DNA from: Chryseobacterium mulctrae
GTDB lineage: Bacteria > Bacteroidota > Bacteroidia > Flavobacteriales > Weeksellaceae
DNA: 64,000 bases
NCBI RefSeq assembly: GCF_006175945.1
Contig: NZ_VAJL01000001.1
Coordinates: 1,178,001 to 1,242,000, forward strand
Reading direction: 5' to 3'
Position 1 is the first letter of the stretch. The number at the start of each line of letters is the position of its first letter. The notes beneath the pieces were generated by a model, which was not told the DNA's origin, made no database searches, and worked only from the letters and a program-made list of their open reading frames with translations. The position numbers and the translations under genes were made by a program. This document shows, piece after piece, positions 1,868-3,607 of this stretch.

Positions 1868-1907
1868 CTGTCATTCTGAACGAATCATAGCGGAGTGAAG
1901 AATCTCA
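1868..1907. repeat. Left inverted repeat of GIY-YIG cassette
   Basis: The 40-base element begins CTGTCATTCTGAA and ends GAAGAATCTC. Its reverse complement is found at 2265-2304. Its outer end TGTCATTCTGA also pairs with TCAGAATGACA at 1933-1943, so the left side can by itself form a long imperfect palindrome. Confidence 0.8.
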
Positions 1908-1937
1908 TTTTAAGTAATGATTTTTCCCAACATCAGA

Positions 1938-2264
1938 ATGACAAAAGAAAAACAATCAATGAAAACTCTTGGAACTCATAATTACTATGTCTATATTTTA
2001 ACCAATAAAATAAAGACTGTTTTGTACACAGGAGTTACCAACAATTTGAAATCCCGATTATATTGGCATCAGAATCCGGAAGCAATTGACAAAAGTTTTA
2101 CCACAAAATATAAATGTTTCTATTTAGTTTATTTTGAACAATTTGCTGATGTAGAAACTGCTATCAAAAAAGAAAAGCAGATAAAAGGTTGAACAAGAAT
2201 TAAAAAAGAGAACTTAATTAAAGAATTTAATCCTACTTGGAAATTTTTGAATGATAACGTTTAA
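1938..2264 (+). pseudogene. GIY-YIG nuclease family protein, interrupted by TGA
   Basis: The protein carries the GIY-YIG core: a YYVYIL strand, YTGVTNNL, the arginine of KSRLYWH and the catalytic-type glutamate in IKKEKQIKG. Related small nucleases of Bacteroidota continue with a tryptophan directly after the KG. Here that codon is TGA (2190-2192), one base from TGG. The same frame stays open beyond it, encoding TRIKKENLIKEFNPTW and so on, up to TAA at 2262-2264, and this resembles the normal family C-terminus. So one point change removes about 24 residues while keeping the catalytic residues. Starts are possible at 1917, 1938 or 1959; 1938 lies within the repeat end and 1959 is closest to the domain. 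It may be a dead gene, a truncated active nuclease or a sequence error. Confidence 0.75.
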
Positions 2265-2304
2265 AGAGATTCTTCATTACGCTTCGCTTCATTCAGAATG
2301 ACAG
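2265..2304. repeat. Right inverted repeat of GIY-YIG cassette
   Basis: This is the inverted partner of 1868-1907, starting AGAGATTCTTCA directly after the nuclease frame's TAA and ending CAGAATGACAG. It ends 13 bases before the start codon of the glycosyltransferase, so it forms most of that gene's leader. Confidence 0.8.
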
Positions 2305-2317
2305 TCTGCAAAATTAT

Positions 2318-3607
2318 ATGGAACAAAAGAAAATTCTTATTATCACCTATTATTGGCCACCTGCAGGTGGACCGGGAGTTCAGCGTTGGTTAAAATTCGC
2401 AAAATATCTTCCAGAATTTGGCTGGAAACCGATTATTTATACACCTGAAAACCCAAGCTACCCTTTGTTGGATGAAAGCTTAATGAATGACGTTCCTGAA
2501 GATTTGGAAATCGTAAGAACAAAAATCTGGGAGCCTTATCAATTGGCGGAAAAGCTTAATAAAAGCAATAAAAAATTCAAAGCGGGGCAATTTGATGTCG
2601 GTAACAATCAAAGCTGGAAATCTAAGCTTTCGATTTGGGTGAGAGGAAATTTTTTCATTCCCGATGCACGCATTTTTTGGGTTAATCCTTCGACTCAATT
2701 TCTTGAGCAATATTTGAAGATCAACAATATTGAGACGATCGTTACTTCAGGACCACCCCACTCGATGCATTTGATAGGTTTAAATTTAAAAAAGAAATTT
2801 CCCGATTTAAAATGGATCGCTGATTTCAGAGATCCGTGGACTGAAATTTCGTATTATAAGCATTTAAAATTAACAAAAAAATCAGATAAAAAGCATCGCC
2901 AATTGGAATCTGAAGTGTTCAAAACTGCGGATATCACTTTGGCAACAAGTTATACCGATGCAGAAAACTTCCGTAAAAATGGAGCAAATGCGTTTTGTAT
3001 TACCAATGGGTTTGATGAAACTGATGCTTCGACTTCGCTCAGCATGACAGAGAACGCTTCAAAATTCACTTTAAGCTATATCGGTGTTTTAGAACAGTTA
3101 AGAAATCCTGAAAACCTTTGGAAGGCAATCGATAATTTAGTGAAAACCAATTCAGATCTTGCAGAAAACTTCAACCTTAAATTTGTCGGAAGAATTGATG
3201 ACAAAATTTTAGAAGCTATTGAGAGATCAAGCTTAAAAGATCATATTCAGAATCTTGGTTACGTTTCGCATGATAAAGCGGTTGATGAAATGGCAAAATC
3301 TTCTCTTTTATTGATCACTAATTTTCCAAATGATTCGTCAAAAGGTATTATTCCTGGAAAAATATTTGAATACTTGGCAACAGGAAAACAAATTATTTCT
3401 TTTGGTCCAAACGAAGCTGATGTTGCAAAAATTTTAGATGAAACAAAAGCAGGAAAACATTTTGGATACAATGATTTCAAAGAAATTGAAGATTTTATTT
3501 TAGAAAAATTCGAACTGTGGAAAAATGGAAATCTTTTAGAAAATACTCAAAACATTGAGAAGTTTTCAAGAAAAAATTTAACAAAACAACTTTCTGAAAT
3601 ATTATAA
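2318..3607 (+). CDS. Glycosyltransferase family 4 (GT-B) protein
   Basis: This cytoplasmic enzyme of 429 residues probably transfers a sugar from a nucleotide donor to a surface or secreted glycan. The N-terminal half opens with a Rossmann strand (KILIITYYWPPAGGPGVQRW) typical of GT4-like enzymes. The C-terminal half has the donor-site segment IPGKIFEYLATGKQI, near residues 345-360, whose glutamate belongs to the conserved EX7E-like motif. The ATG at 2318 follows the right repeat of the GIY-YIG cassette. Residues about 235-244 (TDASTSLSMT) are encoded by bases that match an intergenic repeat family and look like an in-frame insertion in a loop after NGFDE. A hairpin terminator follows. The substrate cannot be predicted. 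Confidence 0.85.
   Translation: MEQKKILIITYYWPPAGGPGVQRWLKFAKYLPEFGWKPIIYTPENPSYPLLDESLMNDVPEDLEIVRTKIWEPYQLAEKLNKSNKKFKAGQFDVGNNQSWKSKLSIWVRGNFFIPDARIFWVNPSTQFLEQYLKINNIETIVTSGPPHSMHLIGLNLKKKFPDLKWIADFRDPWTEISYYKHLKLTKKSDKKHRQLESEVFKTADITLATSYTDAENFRKNGANAFCITNGFDETDASTSLSMTENASKFTLSYIGVLEQLRNPENLWKAIDNLVKTNSDLAENFNLKFVGRIDDKILEAIERSSLKDHIQNLGYVSHDKAVDEMAKSSLLLITNFPNDSSKGIIPGKIFEYLATGKQIISFGPNEADVAKILDETKAGKHFGYNDFKEIEDFILEKFELWKNGNLLENTQNIEKFSRKNLTKQLSEIL
3023..3050. repeat. Interspersed-repeat fragment inside a coding frame
   Basis: The bases GATGCTTCGACTTCGCTCAG continuing into CATGACAG have the look of the palindromic intergenic elements seen at 2265-2304 and 22823-22914 (TTCG..CTTCGCT..ATGACA). 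They are translated here as part of the glycosyltransferase without breaking the frame. Confidence 0.5.

Follow-up and report, generated by a model that had tools for sequence, protein, structure and literature searches.

A small GIY-YIG nuclease gene flanked by inverted hairpin repeats was examined in a 64,000-nucleotide stretch of the Chryseobacterium mulctrae genome (assembly GCF_006175945.1, contig NZ_VAJL01000001.1, positions 1,178,001 to 1,242,000), referred to here as the window. The gene occupies positions 1959-2264 of the forward strand and has 102 codons including the final TAA, with an in-frame TGA; its start was set by relatives. The arms on either side, 1868-1922 and 2250-2304, are 55 nt each and 78% complementary. 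A first-pass annotation of this DNA had placed a nuclease gene between two inverted repeats, and the repeat is real and beyond chance, but the left side proved to be an inverted hairpin pair rather than a single arm. This pair (1869-1942, forward strand), of the type here called A, resembles a REPIN (a doublet of repetitive extragenic palindromes, REPs, forming a hairpin), has the ends TGTCATTCTGA..TCAGAATGACA and is degenerate in its second half. Its first hairpin (1870-1905, forward strand) is built from a GTC tag, a 5-bp stem (ATTCT/AGAAT), an inner stem with G.A mismatches and a triloop apex, while the degenerate second hairpin (1917-1942, reverse strand) has the outer end TGTCATTCTGA and an approximate boundary on its inner side. 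On the right, an inverted A-type hairpin (2267-2302, reverse strand) follows almost directly on the TAA stop codon at 2262-2264, in agreement with the earlier claim that the right repeat lies just past the stop.

The window gene matches the Pfam family PF01541 with E = 1.7e-13 for the part before the TGA and 8.6e-15 across it, and the Pfam scan of the protein also gave a sub-threshold GIY_YIG_2 match. The ATG at 1938, inside the repeat, had been offered as a candidate start but is probably not the start, the one common to the relatives being MKTLGTHNYY at 1959, outside the repeat. The frame had also been called unbroken, and this does not hold, as an in-frame TGA stands at 2190-2192, beyond which the stretch still resembles the family. 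Because of this TGA, whereas the closest relative in the genus sample (locus L029, 96% identical) has TGG at the same position and no stop, the window's copy is probably an inactive pseudogene, and with the A gene stopped in this strain its A repeats are therefore probably immobile now.

Five GIY-YIG matches were found in the 4.87-Mb genome that contains the window (G000). A hairpin pattern gave 22 matches in this genome and its reversed-pattern control none, while a slightly different pattern that includes the GTC tag gave 18. Two of the 22 lie wholly within an open reading frame of at least 120 amino acids; one of the two lacks the GTC tag and probably matches by chance. Near positions 202000 and 4707304 (L004, L005), the genome encodes a longer GIY-YIG protein (172 amino acids) in two seemingly identical copies of opposite orientation, one of them beside a frame that by eye resembles a reverse transcriptase. 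Another small GIY-YIG gene of this genome (L001) has a different palindrome around it, GTCACTTCGAGTA..GTATCGAGAAG, and the survey was therefore extended to the genus.

A GIY-YIG relative at E <= 1e-5 was present in 89 of 118 genus genomes, often several per genome, leaving 29 without a match. The loci examined were 30 first and 60 further ones from among the matches listed, the latter taken with about 5 kb on each side; within the first 30, the repeat of the window was mostly present at close relatives, and a different repeat at more distant ones. Two loci at contig ends (L030, L057) stand outside the tree and all counts after the first 30, and two that form a separate group with no repeat (L112, L113) belong to the tree and the 60-locus sets and stand outside the 87 loci counted below. 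Protein groups and repeat patterns were set by us. The tree was built from 89 proteins, and many of its forks are unresolved because it has only 102 columns. It contains as clades group A, that of the window (support 97/87; repeat TGTCATTCTGAAYG..GAAGAATCTC), group B (100/98; TTTGTCATTCCGTAGGAATC or TTTGTCATCCTGAAAGGATCT), group C (100/99; GTCATTGCGAGGAGCGAAGCGACGAAGCAATCTC) and group E (100/100; GTCACTTCGAG..). The D rows have GTCAGGCTGAGCGGAGTCGAAGCC or GTCACCCTGAGCTTGTCGAAG as their common repeat, and the fork uniting D and E has support 99/87.

With a cognate arm defined as an own-group repeat within 250 bp of the gene, such arms were present on both sides in 72 of the 87 Chryseobacterium loci and on at least one side in 83, and homologues without flanking repeats, a check suggested with the first-pass annotation, are thus few. 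No gene among the loci of the 89-protein tree is boxed on both sides by the repeat of another group; two D loci (L099, L100) have one A-like tag as well, near the 3' end. For the clades A, B, C and E, the repeat type is specific to the GIY-YIG protein group. Some group B and E genes (L067, L114, L115, L116) lie inside hairpin arrays that repeat every ~120-180 bp on both sides. A first tally flagged a stop in 11 of the 25 A matches listed at E <= 1e-30, several of these stops lying before the start; hence stops were recounted in the last 85 residues of each match, where they occur in 7/24 A, 1/22 B, 0/22 C, 0/14 D and 0/5 E loci, so that outside group A a stop within the domain is found in 1 of 63.

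The association was compared with chance and with neighbouring genes. The best inverted-repeat score reached 30 or more at 49 of 60 GIY-YIG loci, compared to 1.2% of 1500 windows of the same geometry on the same contigs, and 36 or more at 42 of 60, compared to none of the 1500. Against the flanks of nearby genes, the corresponding figures were 49/60 and 4/366 at a score of at least 30, and 41/60 and 0/366 at a score of at least 36. Outward hairpins stood on both sides of 31/60 GIY-YIG genes in the genus and of 1/366 nearby genes, and a hairpin on any side was seen at 53/60 loci. When GTCA was replaced by GACA, TGCA or GCTA, the structural motif at GIY-YIG loci dropped to or near background, the maxima for one orientation and one side being 3 of 22 or 24 per genus group, and 3/65 and 5/60 in wider sets. 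We regard the association of the gene with the repeat as secure.

The most informative control came from the family associated with classical REPs, the Y1_Tnp (HuH) proteins, which resemble REP-associated tyrosine transposases (RAYTs). Their genes are present in 104 of the 118 genomes, and 30 of their loci, the best one per genome, were sampled from these. Eleven of the 30 carry their own inverted repeat, of the GAGTCCC..GGGAC type in 10 of the 11, and the method therefore detects RAYT-like REPtrons (transposase genes flanked by their own REPs). An arm of families A-E was found within 250 bp of the Y1_Tnp gene at none of the 30, so that the GTC-tagged repeats in this sample do not belong to the RAYT-like genes. 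The presence of Y1_Tnp showed no correlation with repeat number (p = 0.66 for A, 0.22 for C). Both results disfavour a RAYT as the mobiliser of the GTC-tagged repeats. At L353, L355, L357, L359-L361, L371, L372, L374 and L377, RAYT-like Y1_Tnp genes lie between copies of a repeat of their own (AAAGAGTCCCGAAGGGACGATTTAACCC and variants), perhaps corresponding to the atypical structures that have been reported for subclass 2.6 of TnpAREP.

The hairpin families share the tag (T/C)GTC followed by A, a tag partly fixed by the search pattern. Covariation was measured on 72 A hairpins at distinct contexts, some of them from orthologous sites and so not all independent; the three pairs of highest mutual information are the stem partners 12-26, 16-22 and 17-21, with CG, TA and AT exchanges. 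The two highest pairs are 6-14 and 8-12 in 134 B hairpins, 5-24 and 6-23 rank first and fourth in 18 D hairpins, and in 48 C hairpins 14-20 ranks first, while 15-19 (0.41) is level with non-partner pairs owing to four sequences that vary in concert. Compensatory changes preserve the hairpin fold. Two A column pairs left free in the pattern, 13.25 and 15.23, hold G.A and A.G in 68 of 72 hairpins each, the outer G.A pair of the A hairpin being uninformative because the pattern fixes it. An [A/G]NA triloop, which is very stable in DNA, forms the apex of 69/72 A and 44/48 C hairpins. Where two neighbouring hairpins lie within 220 bp, they face each other in 27/29 cases for A (median spacing 65 bp), 20/50 for B, 42/112 for C, 16/29 for E and 0/4 for D. 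A function as terminators or mRNA hairpins only is not favoured, as a role in RNA leaves the group-specific flanking unexplained.

The arrangement was followed beyond the genus in three sets. The best 80 of 537 C-group matches from named genomes comprise 20 from Chryseobacterium and 60 from elsewhere (Flavobacterium, Maribacter, Winogradskyella, Bacteroidales, Prolixibacteraceae, Marinifilum, Cyclobacteriaceae, Melioribacteraceae and others). Here an inverted score of at least 30 was reached at 52/80 loci, including 33 of the 60 outside Chryseobacterium, compared to 0.8% of 1360 windows, and outward hairpins on both sides were present at 10/43 loci and 0/49 control genes. In a sample of the phylum, relatives occur in 152 of 296 genomes and 84 of 139 genera. 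Among 65 of these loci, several from one genome, a strict outward hairpin was found 5' in 18 (3.1% of controls), 3' in 27 (5.5%) and on both sides in 12 (0.7%), and against control genes hairpins on both sides were present at 8/35 loci and 0/62 genes. From a plasmid collection that also holds chromid- and chromosome-sized records, 17 of 37 records were examined, covering all 16 genera listed, with 128 annotated control genes from four of the 17; a further query of the collection brought up largely the same records. Outward GTCA hairpins stand on both sides at nine of the 17 loci (N. gonorrhoeae, Shinella, Neorhizobium, Rhizobium CIAT894, Azospirillum, Sphingobium, Aeromonas, Planktothrix and Spirosoma) and at none of the control genes, 8/128 of which have a hairpin on at least one side. 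The Novosphingobium locus has GTCG-type arms with an inverted score of 62 and the Sinorhizobium locus one outward hairpin; the Photobacterium and R. tumorigenes loci have no outward hairpins, and no hairpins were found at four more distant proteins (38-42% identity; three from Bacillota and one from Salinivibrio). The arrangement thus recurs in other Bacteroidota, in Proteobacteria and in one cyanobacterium. In Azospirillum lipoferum AZO_p3 (L383), the GIY-YIG gene and its hairpins lie between sufB and sufC of the suf operon.

A predicted structure of a C-group protein (predicted local distance difference test score, pLDDT, 96.4) was searched with Foldseek, which returned the UPF0213 protein 1zg2 first (E = 4e-4), then Slx1 chains (E of 0.025 and up) and, lower, UvrC N-domains. 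An NCBIfam scan gave nothing above its cut-off and weak TIGR01453 matches below it. Residues were aligned for chosen C-group members, one alignment also including the window's frame; L236 and L263 were excluded for stops, and some others from that second alignment. Y8, R29, H33, E67 and N86 are invariant in 22 sequences, which is as expected of an active GIY-YIG enzyme, given the roles that we take the conserved Y, R, H, E and N to have in this domain.

These results suggest that the GIY-YIG protein acts on the hairpin, which we consider likely, and that the unit is a REPtron in which a GIY-YIG nuclease stands in place of the HuH tyrosine transposase. To this whole reading, spread of the repeats included, we assign a probability of about 0.7. 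The protein would recognise the GTC tag together with the hairpin, either extruded or single-stranded as on the lagging strand, and would nick at or near the tag. As DNA hydrolysis by GIY-YIG enzymes involves no covalent intermediate, the joining of copies to new intergenic sites might be left to host replication or repair. Speculatively, the gene would for the most part remain where it is and the repeats would multiply in trans.

The number of dispersed repeats was counted for families A and C over the 118 genomes. The median number of A repeats was 14 in the 23 genomes with an A gene and 1 in the 95 without (p = 4e-9, or 2e-7 after subtracting two arms), and that of C repeats 5 in the 34 genomes with a C gene and 0.5 in the 84 without (p = 5e-10, or 2e-4 after the same subtraction). 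In the cross-tests, C repeats by A gene gave p = 0.15 and A repeats by C gene p = 0.027, or 0.38 after subtraction. Equal abundance of the repeats in genomes without the nuclease, a possibility raised with the first-pass annotation, is thus not borne out by the A counts, although 19 of the 95 genomes without an A gene still have eight or more A repeats. The same correlation would also be seen if the protein were a caretaker, clearing away cruciforms or hairpins that the repeats form instead of spreading the repeats, with repeat-rich genomes keeping the gene. A gene that mostly stays in place and is mostly intact outside group A would fit such a role, as would the second-best structural match, Slx1, a branched-DNA nuclease. 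A caretaker leaves unexplained why each gene is boxed by hairpins of its own group, why the gene is absent from the 29 genomes without a match and why group A decays, and we consider it unlikely.

The 87 units represent about 17 contexts (A 3, B 6, C 2, D 4, E 2; joined by single linkage when either flank is shared), so the gene has mostly been passed on at a fixed place and it is the repeats that are dispersed, as reported for REPtrons. All 118 genomes have a match to the gene downstream of the window's unit, and the orthologous site upstream of that gene was compared in 30 fetched loci. An A unit is present there in G000, G001, G041, G093, G094 and G097, A arms around a short C-terminal gene remnant in G053 (L128), and partial A repeats in G110 and G040. 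Other families occupy the site in G088 and G060 (C-like repeats), G058 (a B pair) and G024 (an E-like repeat); in G046, G055 and G079 it is at most 38 bp long, and the remaining loci have other sequence or genes. The site looks like an insertion hot spot. Another gene, presumably GxxExxY-like, is found in place of the GIY-YIG unit at L121, L126, L129, L142 and L145.

Two solo elements of the window's genome (G000) were compared with four relatives. The element L025 is present in G000 and G074, absent from G018 and degenerate in G061, and L026 is present in G000, G074 and G059 and absent from G018. Presence and absence between close relatives were thus seen, but no clean junction. When the joined flanks of 83 paired solo elements were searched against all fetched loci, skipping those too near a locus end, at least 86 spanning alignments were returned, mostly tandem arrays or too diverged for a junction to be read. 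One might regard the arms as terminal inverted repeats of a classical transposon that moves as a whole, its solo repeats being internal-deletion derivatives of the miniature inverted-repeat transposable element (MITE) type, given that the same outer ends recur in solo A elements, which are inverted pairs, and that G053 retains A arms around a gene remnant. The small number of contexts argues against this, as do the covariation, under which each arm is itself a hairpin, and the many solo pairs that have one short hairpin unlike either gene arm. No target duplication was seen, though one would not be resolvable in these alignments. We consider a transposon less likely still than a caretaker.

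Spread by homing, with the nuclease cutting empty repeats and the gene being copied in through the arms, is close to the self-spreading unit that had originally been proposed. Of that proposal, the specific tie between a GIY-YIG gene and a REP-like palindrome has stood, and the homing of gene and repeats together has found no support, given the few contexts and the interrupted copy in the window. Homing would suit a gene lying between arms that also exist without it, and GIY-YIG domains do occur in homing enzymes, to which the weak TIGR01453 matches below cut-off might point; however, a genome can hold up to 40 strict A hairpins and at most three listed A genes, and we judge this reading very improbable. 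That hairpins of another enzyme merely gather by chance around a dispensable gene, as intergenic hot spots exist and the window's site has different repeat types in different species, is scarcely credible when neighbouring genes are hardly ever boxed, the repeats are group-specific and the Y1_Tnp genes sampled are flanked by different repeats or by none.

Several observations weigh against the proposal that the GIY-YIG protein mobilises its hairpins. Cutting and mobility by the protein are inferred, not observed. The correlations between gene and repeat number take no account of descent, the gene class was assigned from E-value and place, and flanks were checked where loci were fetched or arms listed. 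Eight or more A repeats occur in 19 of the 95 genomes without an A gene, one genome has 40 A repeats and no GIY-YIG match at E <= 1e-5, and five or more C repeats occur in 8 of the 84 genomes without a C gene; repeats outliving a lost gene would explain such genomes. The 87 loci amount to no more than the 17 or so contexts given above, and neither an empty site nor a target duplication could be read to the exact base, intergenic divergence being too high for a comparison at that level. Four of the 87 loci have no cognate arm on either side, D is not separated from E in the tree and so is not a demonstrated clade, and the strict hairpin motif finds none of five loci in group E. A single hairpin on some side is found at 44/366, 12/62 and 10/49 control genes. 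Inverted identity is weaker across the phylum, where a score of at least 30 was reached at 21/65 loci compared to 0.7% of 1280 windows, and 8 of the 17 plasmid-collection loci are without outward GTCA hairpins on both sides.

What we take to be a long membrane-protein gene ends at 1863, before the window's unit, and what we take to be a glycosyltransferase-like gene begins at 2318, after it. Repeats are found also within a variable coding loop of this downstream gene, where a D-like repeat occupies 3026-3049 on the reverse strand; within it 3039-3048 has one mismatch to the A tag, and the length of the loop varies among species. In the relative G060 (L136), a peptide RCHPEPVEG at this loop resembles a translated repeat of the same kind. 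Elsewhere in the genus, four identical A hairpins spaced by exactly 142 bp (G038:C1:908547-909008) are perhaps a recent tandem amplification, and a separate dispersed repeat of ~170 bp (L148:10696-10866) has more than 20 listed copies of ~79-88% identity in four relatives.

Among known proteins, the single-domain GIY-YIG proteins of UPF0213 (PDB 1zg2), which we take to be the YhbQ/YazA proteins, have the same fold and size as the group proteins; unlike the boxed genes, a Radiobacillus member of UPF0213 lies in a tight operon without such hairpins. The next structural matches, to the Slx1 GIY-YIG nuclease, are to a eukaryotic, Slx4-bound enzyme of branched DNA with further domains. A search of literature titles and the beginnings of abstracts found, among the entries listed, no link between GIY-YIG and REPs or REPINs, the literature citing PMC3733652 lying outside that search, and literature containing GTCATTGCGAGG concerned unrelated subjects only.

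The comparison with REP systems draws on parts of two papers. As described in PMC6006769, a REPtron is a TnpAREP gene flanked by its REPs, with generally one full-length gene per repeat type, and REPtrons appear not to transpose as a unit. The GIY-YIG units resemble these in that a gene is flanked by its own dispersed repeats, of types specific to subclasses, with a tetranucleotide tag 5' of the hairpin, and in that the repeats are dispersed while the gene mostly stays in place. They differ in the enzyme, a GIY-YIG protein in which Pfam finds no HuH Y1_Tnp domain, and in the tag, (T/C)GTC then A in place of the GT[AG]G guide tetranucleotide. Having neither a HuH domain nor the GT[AG]G tag, the system is not a RAYT. 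Its chemistry should differ from that of RAYT/TnpAREP, as GIY-YIG enzymes form no covalent intermediate.

Di Nocera et al. 2013 (PMC3733652) sorted REPs into a GTAG superfamily, which has the RAYT transposase, and a CGTC superfamily, which includes the neisserial dRS3 (CGTC-1) and the Rickettsia palindromic elements RPE-4 and RPE-6 of Rickettsia conorii. Stems of CGTC/TGTC repeats nearly always begin with AT, and the repeats mostly form HH dimers. According to the portions of that paper used here, CGTC-positive species have no tyrosine transposase gene flanked by CGTC repeats, the repeats "apparently lack a dedicated transposase" and an early loss of the enzyme is suggested; GIY-YIG does not occur in its main text. 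The repeats described here are similar to this superfamily in the CGTC/TGTC tag at the palindrome end and the A-T first pair (families A-D and 9/17 plasmid-collection loci), and in being paired, mostly intergenic and of several families per genome, with Bacteroidetes among its phyla. They differ in that the Chryseobacterium A, C and D repeats have 5-bp basal stems, G.A mismatches and CT or CTC tails in place of 8-9-bp stems and CCA tails, and in that the first two stem bases of D and E are not AT. Several proteobacterial loci, such as those of Shinella and Azospirillum, fit the 8-9-bp stem and CCA tail, and the gonococcal GIY-YIG locus has GTCATTCCCGCGCAGGCGGGAATCC-type hairpins on both sides that are like dRS3, itself a member of the superfamily. 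The group-specific boxed GIY-YIG gene is thus a candidate for the missing partner of the CGTC REPs. Whether such nucleases might be dedicated mobilisers of the whole (T/C)GTC superfamily across phyla, including dRS3 and by extension RPE-4/RPE-6, and hence a second, chemically independent origin of REPs that uses no covalent protein-DNA intermediate, we put at even odds. If this were true, a common class of bacterial repeats would be explained, and the REP life style would have arisen at least twice with unrelated nuclease chemistries.
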